Of a stretch of 64,000 nucleotides of DNA, positions 31,693 through 36,951 are shown piece after piece. The position numbers were made by a program, and so were the translations under genes. The DNA comes from Bacteroidota bacterium (GTDB taxonomy: Bacteria > Bacteroidota > Bacteroidia > Flavobacteriales > Flavobacteriaceae): positions 1 through 64,000 of the forward strand of contig JAQCDS010000001.1 of NCBI GenBank assembly GCA_027620655.1, given 5' to 3'. The notes below the pieces were generated by a model. The model was not told the origin of the DNA, made no database searches, and saw only the letters and a program-made list of their open reading frames with translations. The number at the start of each line of letters is the position of its first letter. The first letter of the stretch is position 1.

Positions 31693-34545
31693 ATGCCAAA
31701 ACGCAAAGATTTAAAATCCATACTTATTATCGGTTCAGGACCTATTATAATTGGTCAAGCATGTGAATTTGATTATTCTGGTTCTCAAGCACTTCGCTCT
31801 CTTAGAGAGGACGGAATTGAAACTATTCTTATCAACTCAAATCCTGCAACTATTATGACAGATCCCTCTATGGCCGATCATGTATATTTGTTGCCTCTCA
31901 ATACAAAATCAATAATTAAAGTCCTTAAAGAACATCCTCATATTGATGCTGTTTTGCCAACAATGGGAGGACAAACTGCTCTAAATCTTTGTATTGAAGC
32001 TGACGAAAAAGGCATTTGGGAAGATTTTGGTGTGGAAATTATTGGAGTTGATATAGATGCCATTAATATAACTGAAGATAGAGAGAAATTCCGCGAGCTT
32101 ATGCTCAAAATAGAGGTTCCTATGGCCCCACAAGCCACTGCAAACTCCTATTTAAAGGGTAAAGAAATTGCACAAGAATTTGGTTTTCCATTAGTAATTA
32201 GAGCTTCATTTACACTTGGTGGGGCAGGAGCATCAATAGTTTATAGAGAAGAAGATTTTGATGAATTATTGAAACGTGGATTAGAAATTTCACCAATTCA
32301 TGAGGTTATGATCGATAAGGCCATGATGGGTTGGAAAGAGTATGAATTGGAGCTTTTAAGAGATGAAAATGACAACGTTGTTATTATCTGTTCTATCGAA
32401 AATATGGATCCAATGGGCATTCACACTGGAGATTCAATAACTGTTGCTCCAGCCATGACCTTAAGCGATACCACGTACCAAAAAATGCGTGATATGGCAA
32501 TTCATATGATGCGTAGTATTGGCGATTTTGCAGGTGGTTGTAATGTACAATTTGCAGTAAGTCCAGATGAAAAAGAAGAAATCATTGCCATAGAAATTAA
32601 TCCAAGAGTTTCGCGCTCCTCTGCACTAGCCAGTAAAGCTACGGGTTATCCTATTGCAAAAATAGCAGCAAAACTTGCTATTGGTTATGCTCTGGATGAA
32701 CTCCAAAATCAAATTACAAAATCAACTTCGGCATTATTTGAGCCGACTCTAGATTATGTCATTGTAAAAATACCACGTTGGAATTTTGATAAATTTGAAG
32801 GTAGTGATCGCGAATTAGGCCTACAAATGAAAGCCGTAGGGGAAGTGATGGGTATTGGGCGGTCCTTCCAAGAAGCATTGCACAAAGCCACACAATCTCT
32901 TGAAATTAAGCGAAATGGTTTAGGTGCCGACGGAAAAAGCTACTCTGATTACGAGCAGATTATTAGTAAACTCAAACATGCAAGCTGGGATCGTGTATTC
33001 GTTATTTATGACGCCATTCAAATTGGTATTCCTCTATCTAGAATCCATGAAATTACCAAAATTGATATGTGGTTCTTAAAACAATATGAAGAACTGTATT
33101 TCCTTGAAAAAGAAATTTCAAATTATTCTATTGATACGATTACTGAAGAACTTTTACTAGAGGCAAAACAAAAAGGATATGGCGATCGACAAATTGCACA
33201 TATGCTCGATTGTTTTGAAAGTCAGGTTTATAAAAAACGTAAAGAATTCAATATCAATAGAGTATACAAACTAGTTGATACCTGTGCCGCAGAGTTTGAA
33301 GCTAAAACACCCTATTATTATTCAACTTTTGAAAGTCAAATGACTACAAAAGAGGGAGTAACAAAAACTGACAATGAAAGTATTGTTACAGACAAAAAGA
33401 AAATCATTGTTTTAGGATCTGGTCCAAATAGAATTGGACAAGGTATAGAGTTTGATTATTGTTGCGTACATGGGGTATTGGCCGCTGCAGAATGCGGTTA
33501 CGAAACAATTATGATTAATTGTAATCCAGAAACAGTATCAACAGATTTTGATACTGCTGATAAATTGTATTTTGAACCTGTTTTTTGGGAACATATTTAT
33601 GATATCATTCAACATGAAAAACCAGAAGGTGTCATTGTTCAATTAGGTGGACAAACAGCTCTTAAATTGGCAGAAAAGCTAGATCGATATGGAATCAAAG
33701 TCATTGGAACAAGCTACCAATCTTTAGATTTAGCCGAAGATCGTGGTTCATTTTCTAACTTATTAAAAGAAAATAATATTCCTTACCCTGAATTTGACAC
33801 TGCCGAAACTGCTGATGAAGCCCTAAAAGTAGCTGATAAGCTTGATTTTCCAATACTAGTAAGACCATCTTATGTTCTTGGAGGGCAAGGCATGAAAATT
33901 GTCATTAACAAGCAAGAGCTTGAAGATCATGTGATAGATTTACTTCGTAAAATTCCAAATAATAAATTGCTTTTAGATCATTATTTAGATGGCGCCATTG
34001 AAGCAGAAGCGGATGCGATTTGCGATGGAGAAAATGTATACATCATCGGAATTATGGAGCACATAGAACCTTGTGGAATCCATTCTGGTGATAGTAATGC
34101 AACACTTCCACCATTCAATTTAGGGGATTTGGTAATGCAACAAATTAAAGATCATACAAAGAAAATTGCACTTGCTCTAAATACTGTTGGTCTAATCAAT
34201 ATCCAGTTTGCTGTTAAAAATGATAAAGTATATATCATTGAAGCCAACCCAAGAGCATCTAGAACAGTACCTTTTATTGCAAAAGCATACGGAGAACCTT
34301 ATGTGAATTATGCTACTAAAGTGATGCTTGGCGATAAAAAAGTTACTGATTTTGATTTTAAACCACATTTAGATGGCTATGCCATTAAGCAACCAGTGTT
34401 TTCATTCAATAAGTTTCCAAATGTGAATAAACAATTGGGACCAGAAATGAAAAGTACTGGAGAAAGCATTTTATTTATAGACAGTCTAAAAGACGATGAG
34501 TTCTATGACTTGTATGCAAGACGCAAAATGTATTTGAGTAAATAA
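31693..34545 (+). CDS. carB: Carbamoyl-phosphate synthase large subunit
   Basis: 950 residues. Makes carbamoyl phosphate from bicarbonate, ammonia and 2 ATP for pyrimidine and arginine synthesis. Two ATP-grasp halves are seen: first with LIIGSGPIIIGQACEFDYSG and FTLGGAGASIV, second (from about residue 570) with VLGSGPNRIGQGIEFDYCC and YVLGGQGMKIV; catalytic loops EINPRVSRSSALASKATGYP and EANPRASRTVPFIAKAYGEP are intact. The chain ends just after the second half (YDLYARRKMYLSK), so the C-terminal MGS-like regulatory domain of the ~1070-residue enzymes is absent, as I recall for Bacteroidota CarB. A -7 candidate TATTTTTG is at 31653-31660. carA is not in the window. Confidence 0.95.
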   Translation: MPKRKDLKSILIIGSGPIIIGQACEFDYSGSQALRSLREDGIETILINSNPATIMTDPSMADHVYLLPLNTKSIIKVLKEHPHIDAVLPTMGGQTALNLCIEADEKGIWEDFGVEIIGVDIDAINITEDREKFRELMLKIEVPMAPQATANSYLKGKEIAQEFGFPLVIRASFTLGGAGASIVYREEDFDELLKRGLEISPIHEVMIDKAMMGWKEYELELLRDENDNVVIICSIENMDPMGIHTGDSITVAPAMTLSDTTYQKMRDMAIHMMRSIGDFAGGCNVQFAVSPDEKEEIIAIEINPRVSRSSALASKATGYPIAKIAAKLAIGYALDELQNQITKSTSALFEPTLDYVIVKIPRWNFDKFEGSDRELGLQMKAVGEVMGIGRSFQEALHKATQSLEIKRNGLGADGKSYSDYEQIISKLKHASWDRVFVIYDAIQIGIPLSRIHEITKIDMWFLKQYEELYFLEKEISNYSIDTITEELLLEAKQKGYGDRQIAHMLDCFESQVYKKRKEFNINRVYKLVDTCAAEFEAKTPYYYSTFESQMTTKEGVTKTDNESIVTDKKKIIVLGSGPNRIGQGIEFDYCCVHGVLAAAECGYETIMINCNPETVSTDFDTADKLYFEPVFWEHIYDIIQHEKPEGVIVQLGGQTALKLAEKLDRYGIKVIGTSYQSLDLAEDRGSFSNLLKENNIPYPEFDTAETADEALKVADKLDFPILVRPSYVLGGQGMKIVINKQELEDHVIDLLRKIPNNKLLLDHYLDGAIEAEADAICDGENVYIIGIMEHIEPCGIHSGDSNATLPPFNLGDLVMQQIKDHTKKIALALNTVGLINIQFAVKNDKVYIIEANPRASRTVPFIAKAYGEPYVNYATKVMLGDKKVTDFDFKPHLDGYAIKQPVFSFNKFPNVNKQLGPEMKSTGESILFIDSLKDDEFYDLYARRKMYLSK

Positions 34546-34698
34546 TCAAAAAAGAGGCGACGTTTTAGTCGCCTTTTTTATGAGTTGAAAATCTAAAGAA
34601 ATAGTCACTGTATCACTGACTTTATAACAAACAATTTTTGGAAAATCTATTGTAAAGTCATCTGCATTTACATCAAAAGTACCGTTGAATTTTATCAT
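34546..34698 (-). pseudogene. C-terminal fragment of a YceI-like gene
   Basis: Minus strand from ATG 34698 to TGA 34546 gives 50 residues starting MIKFNGTFDVNADDFTIDFP and continuing to TVTISLDFQLIKK. That matches the last ~40 residues of flavobacterial YceI-like (polyisoprenoid-binding lipocalin fold) proteins: a beta strand, a D-F/Y-x-I-x-x-P loop and a final strand. The frame stays open back to a TAG near 34738 but nothing of the N-terminal barrel or signal peptide is present. Its last residues run through the carB terminator hairpin. I read it as a remnant; a real 50-residue gene is possible but less likely. Confidence 0.45.
34555..34579 (+). terminator. Rho-independent terminator of carB
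   Basis: Perfect 7-bp stem AGGCGAC/GTCGCCT (34555-34561 and 34568-34574), 6-nt loop, T-run to 34579, with an A-run on the other side, so it may work in both directions. Confidence 0.85.
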
Positions 34699-34715
34699 AT
34701 TGTCCTCTTTTGTAA

Positions 34716-34931
34716 TATAAATTTCTAGGTAAAACTATTCTTGTGAAGGGTGTTGTCACCAAAATTAAATGGAGTTATTTAACACTAAATGACAAAATTT
34801 ACTGTAAATTTGAAAAAGAACTTCCCAAAAATGTATTGAACACCAACTTAAAAGTTAAAGGCCGATGTATCGGCTTTGATGAGTTATTAGAACAAGTAAA
34901 GTTAGATCAATGCAATATCGAAGTAAAATAA
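34716..34931 (+). pseudogene. C-terminal fragment of a tRNA_anti-like (OB-fold) gene
   Basis: The frame is open from 34716 (after TAA at 34713) to 34931 and reads YKFLGKTILVKGVVTKI, then LNDKIYCKFEKELPK and VKGRCIGFDELLEQVKLDQCNI. This matches the C-terminal OB-fold of tRNA_anti-like proteins of Bacteroidota, which normally begin with a membrane anchor and about 40 more residues. No ATG lies in front; GTG at 34743 would start within the fold. It overlaps the ankyrin gene by 22 nt. Most likely a 5'-truncated gene whose downstream neighbours survive. Confidence 0.6.
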
Positions 34932-35437
34932 TACTATCTCTTTTATTAATCACGCAAGTTTTGTGTGCTCAAGATTCAATTTTTGACCTTGCGCGCCATG
35001 GTACTGTAGAAGATTTTAAAGCACTTTCAAATGGTGATACTTCTATTTTAATACAAAAAGACGAAAGAGGGAGTACGCCACTTGTTTTGGCCTGCTACTA
35101 CAACAATATTGATGTTGTAAGGTATATTATACAAAATATAGATGACATCAATGGTACTACAAAAGACGGTTCGTCATTGATGGCCTCGGCCGTTAAAGGT
35201 TATAATGCAATTTCTAAACTATTAATAGCTGCTGGAGCAGATGTCAATCTACAAGATGCCAATCAAACTACAGCGTTGCATTATGCCGTCATGTTTAAGA
35301 ACTATGATTTAGTACTGATGCTCTTAGAAGCAGGTGCCAATCCTAACCACAAAAATAACGTTGGGCAATCGCCCATGGATTTTGCAGTTATGCAAAATGA
35401 TAATCGTATGAATATACTTTTTAAAATAAACCAATAG
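34910..35437 (+). CDS. Periplasmic ankyrin-repeat protein
   Basis: 175 residues with a signal peptide (MQYRSKIILSLLLITQVLCAQ) and about four ankyrin repeats (GSTPLVLACYYNNIDVVRYI, DGSSLMASAVKGYNAISKLL, QTTALHYAVMFKNYDLVLML, GQSPMDFAVMQNDNRM). Ankyrin repeats bind other proteins; in the periplasm such small proteins are known to accompany catalases or other redox enzymes. The start overlaps the truncated OB-fold gene by 22 nt, which implies translational coupling in the ancestral operon. The downstream DOMON gene starts 3 bp after its stop. It looks intact. Confidence 0.85.
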   Translation: MQYRSKIILSLLLITQVLCAQDSIFDLARHGTVEDFKALSNGDTSILIQKDERGSTPLVLACYYNNIDVVRYIIQNIDDINGTTKDGSSLMASAVKGYNAISKLLIAAGADVNLQDANQTTALHYAVMFKNYDLVLMLLEAGANPNHKNNVGQSPMDFAVMQNDNRMNILFKINQ

Positions 35438-35440
35438 CTT

Positions 35441-36187
35441 ATGCGAAAAATTACACTTCTATTCTTTGTTTTTACATTTTTTATTGCTCAGGCACAATAT
35501 ACCACTACTAGTGAAATTACACTTACACCTGGATTTACAGTTCAGTTTGAAGTAAATGGTACTACAAATTTAGTAACTATGACTATGACTCTACCTGAAA
35601 ATGATTGGTTAGCGATTGGTTTAGATGCATCAGGAATGGGTAGTTCAAACAAAGATGTCATTGTTTATGATAGTTCCGGTATTCAAGACCGGTATTTAAA
35701 TGGACATGTCACACCTCCACTGGACAGCACTCAAAATTGGGCAATATCATCAAATACTGTGTCTAATAGTGTAAGAACAGTCATAGCAACTAGAACTTTA
35801 AATACTGGGGATAATAAAGATTATGTGTTTACAACCTCAGAAGTTTCATTTCTTCCGATGATATGGGCAAAAGGTTCTGGAACTCTTGGTTCTCATGGTT
35901 CAAATAAAGGAGTAACATCTACTTCATTGGGAACACCTGATATTCTCATAGCTTCTGACTTTAAAGTCCATCCTAATCCAACAATTAATGAATTAAATTT
36001 TGAATTTCCACAAAATATTCAGTCTGCTAACGTTCAGGTCTACAATGTTTTAGGAAAACAAATTCTACAAAAAACCCTTAAAAAAACATACCCAAAACTT
36101 AATACAAGCTCATGGGCATCAGGAATGTATGTGGTGCAGATTGTAACTGATAATGTCGTTCAAACAAAGCGTGTTGTTAAGCAATAA
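35441..36187 (+). CDS. DOMON-domain protein with T9SS type A sorting domain
   Basis: 248 residues: signal peptide (MRKITLLFFVFTFFIAQAQ), a DOMON-like beta-sandwich (VTMTMTLPENDWLAIGLDAS, SSNKDVIVYDSSGIQDRYLNG, WAKGSGTLGSHGSNKG) and a C-terminal type IX sorting domain (FKVHPNPTINELNFEF, VYNVLGKQIL, SGMYVVQIVTDNVVQTKRVV). DOMON domains bind heme or sugar and often work in extracellular electron transfer; the axial Met/His ligands cannot be assigned with confidence here. Exported by T9SS to the surface. It is 3 bp after the ankyrin gene and followed at once by a DUF5777 fragment. Confidence 0.85.
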   Translation: MRKITLLFFVFTFFIAQAQYTTTSEITLTPGFTVQFEVNGTTNLVTMTMTLPENDWLAIGLDASGMGSSNKDVIVYDSSGIQDRYLNGHVTPPLDSTQNWAISSNTVSNSVRTVIATRTLNTGDNKDYVFTTSEVSFLPMIWAKGSGTLGSHGSNKGVTSTSLGTPDILIASDFKVHPNPTINELNFEFPQNIQSANVQVYNVLGKQILQKTLKKTYPKLNTSSWASGMYVVQIVTDNVVQTKRVVKQ

Positions 36188-36444
36188 GAAGAGATGAAAT
36201 ACGCTACAAATTGGGTAAGCGTTGGTCTTTTAATTTGGAATATGGTGCACATTCGAATCGTGCTAAAAACCCACTTTATAAAAATCCACTTTCTGTTGGA
36301 TTTGATTTTGAAACGGGAAGACATGTGTTTCAATTACACTTCAAAAATTCTCAGTTTATGAATGCTAACACTGCCTTGGGTAACAGTACCGGCGATTGGA
36401 CCGATGGTGATTTTCACTTTGGATTTATTAGCCGATCGTTCTAA
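36187..36444 (+). pseudogene. C-terminal fragment of a DUF5777 beta-barrel gene
   Basis: The frame open from 36181 reads RRDEIRYKLGKRWSFNLEYG, then NPLSVGFDFETGRHVFQLHF and STGDWTDGDFHFGFISRSF, which matches the last ~80 residues of the DUF5777 outer-membrane beta-barrel family (normally about 280-300 residues with a signal peptide). No ATG precedes it; the only start is TTG at 36211 inside conserved sequence. It begins exactly where the DOMON gene stops. A deletion that joined the DOMON end to the DUF5777 end explains it best. Confidence 0.7.
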
Positions 36445-36450
36445 TTAAAG

Positions 36451-36951
36451 TTATTTTACTTCTTGTAAATAGTGTTTTTGGATAAAATTAAATCCAATAA
36501 TCATTACTCCAGAATAGAAAAAATCACCTAATAAAGAATTTCTAAAAAAAGGCAAGGCTAGGGTATAACATTCTACTAAACCAGTCCAAGTCTTTGGATA
36601 GCCCAGCAACCAAACGCCAAAATTTGTAACAATAAAAAAGCTTAAACTTCCCAGAAATATAGTAAGAATACTAGGTTTTTTTCTTTGTGTACCAATCAGT
36701 GTTACTAGCATAAAACCAGCATAAACAAATAATGTAATGGAAGAAAAGCCGAGAAAAATATCTGAAATAAACATAATAATGAGAGGCAAAGCATAGGCCA
36801 AAATCCTGTTTAAAATATACAAACCACCAAAAAGTGCAATAGCAGTAACAGGGGTAAAGTTTGGAAGATGAGGAACTAGTCTAGTGAGTACAGCAGCCAA
36901 CATAATAATAGCAATTATCAAATTTTTTTTATTAATAATAGTTGACGCCAT
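36451..36951 (-). CDS. DUF6580 membrane protein (putative transporter component)
   Basis: 166 residues, five or six hydrophobic helices, opening with a conserved stretch of the family: LTRLVPHLPNFTPVTAIALF, then GGLYI and LGYPKTWTGLVECYTLALPF. The fold resembles S-components of energy-coupling factor transporters, and in relatives the family is near vitamin B12 or cofactor genes, so a vitamin-uptake role is possible but not shown here. It converges with the DUF5777 fragment (6 bp between stops) and lies 43 bp after the start of the S41 gene on the same strand. Confidence 0.8.
   Translation of the reverse strand: MASTIINKKNLIIAIIMLAAVLTRLVPHLPNFTPVTAIALFGGLYILNRILAYALPLIIMFISDIFLGFSSITLFVYAGFMLVTLIGTQRKKPSILTIFLGSLSFFIVTNFGVWLLGYPKTWTGLVECYTLALPFFRNSLLGDFFYSGVMIIGFNFIQKHYLQEVK

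Follow-up and report, generated by a model that had tools for sequence, protein, structure and literature searches.

Porin-cytochrome conduits such as Mtr are trans-outer-membrane electron conduits, encoded by adjacent genes for a barrel, a many-heme cytochrome and a surface redox protein. Here we describe an eroded locus in a Flavobacteriaceae genome that points to a module of partly similar make-up. The window, that is, the whole stretch of DNA analysed, comprises 64,000 nucleotides (positions 1 to 64,000 of contig JAQCDS010000001.1, assembly GCA_027620655.1, labelled G000; other G and L numbers denote sampled genomes and fetched loci). Between carB and a DUF6580 gene it holds what are probably the remains of a six-gene locus beside carB, broken only recently. 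Like the Mtr-type conduits, the module behind this locus, known here from genes alone, has barrel, cytochrome and surface redox protein genes side by side, but it differs in its DUF5777 barrel, its one heme motif, its YceI and OB-fold partners and its surface protein with a type IX secretion system (T9SS) tail. Other systems are comparable in part. Cytochrome DOMON proteins, with heme b held by Met and His as in cellobiose dehydrogenase (CDH), resemble the window's DOMON protein in its PF03351 match and its invariant Met and His, although the latter has no dehydrogenase domain by Pfam and carries a T9SS sorting tail instead. The interchange of plastocyanin and cytochrome c6 is paralleled by a copper carrier that takes the place of the relatives' heme carrier; unlike that pair, the module is not photosynthetic as far as seen, and the two carriers have different domains behind lipoprotein leaders that are similar in part. 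Gene decay by deletion, known from small genomes, is matched by a 1.9-Mb genome in which deletions have recently cut into a dispensable locus, leaving stumps at both ends beside housekeeping neighbours, whereas here an intact locus, two decay stages in sister genomes and a surviving separable part are all found within one genus. The erosion alone is ordinary recent gene decay; its interest is as a pointer to a conserved, apparently undescribed module. Searches on DOMON, YceI, T9SS, cytochrome and family names found no description of the module in the portions of the literature covered, where it may stand under other names, and it seems to be undescribed there.

The genus set of 11 genomes was searched with the DOMON protein (match threshold E 1e-15 or better), and matches were obtained in G000, G149, G154 and G155. 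In the latter three the locus is complete, with the gene order carB> <YceI <cytochrome c OB> ankyrin> DOMON> DUF5777> <DUF6580; complete loci occur in other genera too. The gene between YceI and OB encodes 121 residues with one CxxCH motif, a small c-type cytochrome. In the window, two short deletions removed or cut YceI, cytochrome c, OB and DUF5777, sparing ankyrin and DOMON. Relative to G154, about 1.0 kb is lost at the first junction: most of YceI, the entire cytochrome c gene, the intergenic region of the divergent transcripts and the first half of OB. YceI at about codon 127 is fused there to OB at about codon 76 across some 8 nucleotides common to both (read by eye), with YceI homology reaching about 34722 and OB homology beginning at 34716. 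The second deletion is internal to DUF5777: about seven bases including the start codon (ATG AAA T) are retained at 36194, and the gene then continues near codon 202 in a different frame, with about 0.6 kb lost. The YceI stump also has a 1-nucleotide deletion at the very end of the gene, and its 50-residue open reading frame therefore runs past the normal stop. That the DUF5777 truncations are recent is well supported. With the G149 cytochrome as query, no match at E 0.001 was found anywhere in G000 or in G046, the sister genome discussed below, and G000 holds no second match to this cytochrome, to OB or to DUF5777; a separate YceI gene does lie elsewhere in G000 (contig C16, 87.7 bits). The locus in the window is laid out as follows.

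31693..34545, plus strand: carB, intact left neighbour (open reading frame list, identity comparison)
34546..34722, minus strand: C-terminal stump of YceI (homology to about 34722; 50-residue open reading frame)
34555..34574, minus strand: terminator-like hairpin in the interval between carB and the YceI stump
34715..34727, no strand: junction 1, YceI to OB (read from the sequence)
34716..34931, plus strand: C-terminal stump of the OB-fold (tRNA_anti-like) gene, open frame (homology to congeneric OB)
34910..35437, plus strand: ankyrin-repeat protein, intact (open reading frame, Pfam; signal peptide by eye)
35441..36187, plus strand: DOMON protein with T9SS sorting tail, intact (open reading frame, Pfam, TIGR04183)
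36194..36201, plus strand: junction 2, DUF5777 start to about codon 202 (read from the sequence)
36194..36361, plus strand: frame-shifted 55-residue open reading frame created by junction 2, no function inferred
36199..36444, plus strand: C-terminal stump of the DUF5777 beta-barrel, 77 residues in frame at 36211-36444 (Pfam)
36451..36951, minus strand: DUF6580 gene, intact right neighbour (Pfam, 173.2 bits)

The five elements that a sequence-only reading had named between carB and DUF6580 (YceI stump, OB stump, ankyrin, DOMON-T9SS and DUF5777 end) were all confirmed by open reading frames, Pfam and congeners, and the complete version that it proposed to seek in relatives exists. It had also proposed that deletions joined the ends of three genes; exactly YceI, OB and DUF5777 are cut, but at two separate junctions rather than in one joining, and the wholly lost sixth gene, the cytochrome c, had been overlooked. 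The ankyrin protein matches Ank_2 in Pfam (E 7.1e-23, 81.4 bits against a cut-off of 27.3). The DOMON protein matches PF03351 (48.4 bits against 32.7) and Por_Secre_tail, and with 53.5 bits against 23 for the T9SS type A sorting domain TIGR04183 it is predicted to be secreted. The DUF5777 remnant, expected at about 80 residues and found to be the last 77 codons, scores above the Pfam cut-off on its own (81.2 bits against 23.1) and spans positions 165/170-247 of the 247 in the profile. The YceI stump alone is below its cut-off (15.9 bits against 23.7; positions 116-149 of a domain of about 150, for which the full congeneric gene scores 48.5 bits) and matches residues 137-178 of G149 YceI at 79% identity. 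For the OB stump (62 residues) the Pfam search gave no match, PF12869 included; the stump is 84% identical to residues 84-145 of G154 OB, and full-length G149 OB does match PF12869 (tRNA_anti-like, 33.3 bits against 23.5). Both stump identities are secured because full-length congeneric genes occupy the same place. The OB stump overlaps the ankyrin start by 22 nucleotides, the same overlap as in G149, G154 and G155. An Rfam scan of 34400-36600 returned no family at gathering score.

Wider sampling separates the locus into two units. Within the genus, DUF5777 is full-length in 9 of the 11 genomes; the G157 locus consists of OB, cytochrome c, YceI and DUF5777 with no ankyrin-DOMON, the G150, G152 and G156 loci consist of OB, YceI and DUF5777 plus a cupredoxin, again lacking the pair, and the loci of G151 and G153 are interrupted by contig ends. 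DOMON loci of other genera were taken as 15 stretches from the 15 best-scoring genomes besides G000 in a 149-genome sample of the family. Ankyrin lies directly upstream of DOMON in 14 of these, carB is in the stretch in all 15, and OB, cytochrome c, YceI and DUF5777 are all present in eight. The remaining seven loci lie away from these four genes, six of them with ankyrin; DUF5777 is found elsewhere in four of the seven genomes (G029, G038, G083 and G085) and has no match in three (G088, G114 and G147, which are 87%, 99% and 73% complete, G114 being the one lacking ankyrin). DUF5777 itself has matches in 71 of the 149 genomes, two of which are the stumps of G000 and G046. Among 40 further loci, drawn from 102 DUF5777 places and mostly from their better-scoring half, our own profiles place OB, cytochrome, YceI and DUF5777 together in 38; of the exceptions, L145 is cut short by the end of its contig, and those profiles find neither OB nor cytochrome in L146. 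The one-CxxCH cytochrome is detected by its profile in 39 of the 40 stretches, including all 38 core loci; a heme c protein is thus encoded with the barrel elsewhere, and the gene is absent in the window. OB, cytochrome c, YceI and DUF5777 form a conserved core, and ankyrin and DOMON a separable cassette. The deletions in the window thus hit all the core genes and spared a unit that stands apart in other genomes. The five families, earlier taken for one operon, do lie side by side, but they belong to a core of four genes and a detachable pair, and intact congeners carry these genes on two divergent strands.

What becomes of the spared pair can be read in two ways. It is possible, if short of probable, that ankyrin and DOMON are also dying, merely not yet hit and intact since the deletions are recent, and would follow G046, in which no DOMON match is found. 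In a neutral simulation at the stump's rate, which modelled no indels, 10-14% of runs kept 423 codons free of stops, and intactness is therefore weak evidence of use. The G000 ankyrin deviates at 3 of 25 near-invariant positions (3 of 29 other sequences are as high or higher) and its DOMON at 3 of 30 (none of 28 other sequences as high), the corresponding counts for YceI (0/5) and OB (0/7) having too little power, and the intergenic region presumed to carry the promoter is deleted. The altered residues are, however, mostly conservative, and 22 relative-rate triples, 11 for each gene, gave no significant acceleration of ankyrin or DOMON, the nearest case being DOMON against G162 with G036 (31:17, p 0.059). 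In three triples the congeners' DOMON was faster than the window's, since the latter carries a domain allele near that of G123, which belongs to another genus. Continued decay also fits poorly with the DOMON loci of other genera, where 7 of 15 lie apart from the core (six with ankyrin) and three of these seven genomes, two with ankyrin, have no DUF5777 match.

Alternatively, and this we hold just as tentatively, the pair is kept as core-independent workers, for example with DOMON as a surface binder of heme or another ligand and ankyrin as its periplasmic partner. Both deletions end at the borders of what is a natural pair, ankyrin being immediately upstream in 14 of the 15 DOMON loci; neither gene is significantly accelerated; and G147 and G088 carry the pair with no DUF5777 match. 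These two genomes are just 73% and 87% complete, however, and in G029, G038, G083 and G085 the pair lies beside carB, yet DUF5777 is elsewhere in the genome, so that the pair may still depend on it. A sigma-70 promoter scan stayed near chance (13 found against a mean of 9.9, standard deviation 3.3). A Bacteroidetes-type promoter pattern has two 9-of-10 matches upstream of ankyrin, at 34709 and 34778, where single-base shuffling leads one to expect 0.30. The match at 34778 is also present within the OB coding sequences of G149, G154, G155 and G157 and may therefore be protein-driven.

G046 is the nearest of the 11 genomes, its carB, sigma factor and DUF6580 being 98, 94 and 85% identical to those of the window, above other congeners. 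In its locus about the last 66 YceI codons are joined to the last 76 DUF5777 codons, which leaves it about 3.1 kb shorter than that of G149 and without the cassette, and its junction is unlike those of G000. Between the DUF5777 stumps of the two genomes there are 0.079 nonsynonymous substitutions per site (dN) and 1.37 synonymous substitutions per site (dS), so most of their divergence accumulated under constraint. Lineage-unique changes in the stumps were compared with those in four flanking genes (carB, DUF6580, S41 peptidase and sigma factor) by Fisher test. When G155 serves as outgroup, 8 amino-acid and 6 synonymous unique changes fall in the G000 DUF5777 stump against 56 and 190 in the flanking genes (p 0.008); for G046 the counts are 2 and 8 in the stump, 46 and 193 in the flanking genes (p 1.0). 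Other outgroups gave p 0.009 (G123), 0.021 (G154), 0.051 (G149) and 0.37 (G157, carB left out) for G000, and 0.59 to 1.0 for G046. Because the junctions differ and the G000 stump has an amino-acid excess where the G046 stump has none, the likeliest course is that the losses were independent and came later in G046. Two observations sit uneasily with this. The YceI stumps look relaxed in both genomes (G000 6:4, p 0.015; G046 4:1, p 0.007), on very few sites, and therefore do not separate shared from independent loss; and only about a dozen bases separate the right-hand ends of the two DUF5777 deletions (window 36201, L074 about 5620), an unexplained coincidence. A deletion shared with G046, first suggested by these close right ends, was judged less likely in view of the different junctions and the unrelaxed G046 DUF5777 stump.

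The proposal of erosion had been made contingent on relatives not carrying the same short forms as normal genes. G046 alone carries such forms, and its junctions and rates suggest a separate recent loss, with DUF5777 full-length in nine of the 11 genomes. It is highly improbable that the short forms are normal working genes for C-terminal mini-proteins: the OB and DUF5777 stumps are stop-free open reading frames, YceI and DUF5777 stumps are present in G046 as well and the two DUF5777 stumps start about a dozen bases apart, but the stumps start within the mature proteins and so are without the export signals that, by eye, begin the full genes, the YceI stump has a shifted stop, the breakpoints are unlike in the two genomes, and the amino-acid change ratio of the G000 DUF5777 stump is raised, with p below 0.05 for three of five outgroups. 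Still harder to credit are assembly misjoins, as the window lies inside a 553-kb contig of a genome that is 99.76% complete, the missing cytochrome is found nowhere else in the assembly, the stumps bear changes of their own and erosion has struck this site in a second genome as well.

The core consists of an OB-fold protein with an N-terminal hydrophobic stretch, a lipoprotein-like cytochrome c, YceI and the DUF5777 barrel, with cell locations assigned by eye. Most likely it would carry electrons, by way of the cytochrome and YceI, either towards a surface redox protein near the barrel or away from it, and DOMON, putatively with heme b held by Met66 and His152, would be one such surface partner. 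One alignment shows both residues without exception (25 of 25 proteins), and this still holds with other intact copies included (31 of 31). Met65 and His163 coordinate heme in the fungal CDH cytochrome domain, according to the excerpt consulted (PMC11112829). Met66 and His152 may be equivalent to these ligands, and DOMON would then be a putative heme b protein. A sequence search of solved structures with the DOMON protein matched the T9SS tail and gave two weak hits (E 0.76 and 0.89) and no DOMON structure, and a single-sequence structure model was poor (mean predicted local distance difference test score 39.4).

Support for a redox role comes from the genus itself. In G150, G152 and G156 a copper protein (PF00127, 32.9-34.4 bits against 21.2) stands where other congeners have the cytochrome:

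L075:5263-5622, L077:6169-6534 and L079:6224-6583: cupredoxin lipoproteins in the cytochrome's place

These would represent a heme-to-copper replacement inside one genus. Past the lipid cysteine, 10 residues of the cupredoxin leader were set against the G149 cytochrome leader, and 7 agree in G150 and 5 in G152; when 167 other lipoprotein-like leaders were compared with the same sequence, 4 residues agreed in eight of them, 6 in one and all 10 in one, which has the letters of the G156 copy. In 10 of the 38 core loci the interval from OB to DUF5777, DOMON's position in the window genus, holds a T9SS-tailed cupredoxin. The redox reading gains support because heme domains exchange with copper domains, as expected for electron carriers. 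The surface redox work suggested at the outset is thus strengthened by the lost cytochrome c, the cupredoxin replacements and the invariant DOMON Met and His, while electron flow through the module, and its direction, is what we infer from them. As a side observation, a further T9SS-tailed cupredoxin, at L077:5583-6167, adjoins the cupredoxin lipoprotein of that locus.

Several points pull the other way. The matches of the cytochrome to cytochrome families are weak, about 20-22 bits in G149 and G123 and below cut-off (20.3 bits against 27 for PF13442). Six of the 38 core loci have, in the slot from OB to DUF5777, T9SS-tailed proteins of other kinds in which no redox centre is evident; another 22 slots lack a T9SS tail by our own cut-off, although YceI lies in the gap in nine of these and one of the 22, L142, does have a tail by Pfam. 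The name DUF5777 was found nowhere in a search across 5.39 million papers. The slot proteins lacking a redox centre weigh against a purely redox role. On balance, we tentatively propose, at somewhat less than even confidence, an undescribed surface redox system of this bacterial family in which a fixed periplasm-to-outer-membrane core works with interchangeable T9SS carriers (heme DOMON with ankyrin, cupredoxin and others), carrier domains are recombined between species behind more constant export signals, and the core is repeatedly lost in the genus, with an orphan carrier left here. The natural replacements of heme by copper and the natural knock-outs in G000 and G046 make the module's role testable across close relatives. 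Separately, by eye, a 117-residue protein in the OB-DUF5777 slot of another locus (L134:5209-5562) has little beyond a signal peptide and a T9SS tail.

DNA identity in sliding windows indicates that the locus has a mosaic history. The last 200 or so codons of carB (33940-34545) are 95-97% identical to G149, against 79-93% in most earlier windows, and this end is, as judged by identity, a recombination tract running toward the eroded locus. The OB stump (87-92%) and the first third of ankyrin (85-97%) resemble G154, and ankyrin codons 91-145 or thereabouts resemble G149 (92-97%); the window's ankyrin gene is accordingly read as a mosaic, G154-like at its 5' end and G149-like at its 3' end. In the DOMON domain (codons about 31-130) identity is 69-81% with G123 and 36-68% with congeners, and the T9SS tail is nearer to congeners. 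G149 and G154, for their part, are 97.6% identical at the S41 gene and only 66% at OB and 65% at ankyrin. A comparison of G123 with G170 in 150-base windows gives 96.6-100% identity outside DOMON, across 6.3 kb, but 68-83% in three DOMON-domain windows (L035:7470-8216, L099:7503-8261), which would fit a sharply bounded swap of the surface domain; the G170 genome has 8% contamination and a split carB. These mosaic identities make the locus a place of frequent allele exchange, and such exchange may be the way the deletions arose or spread.

The idea that DOMON is the most variable gene of the locus was rejected: it is least identical in just 11 of 36 G123-genus locus pairs, and the OB mean is lower (66.3 against 72.7). 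This comparison used loci with all seven genes and left out G173 (split DOMON) and G167 (weak match). Finally, frame shifts split carB in both G173 (L106:2147-7795) and G170 (L099:2552-5307), and DOMON is split in G173; sequencing indels seem a likelier cause than decay.

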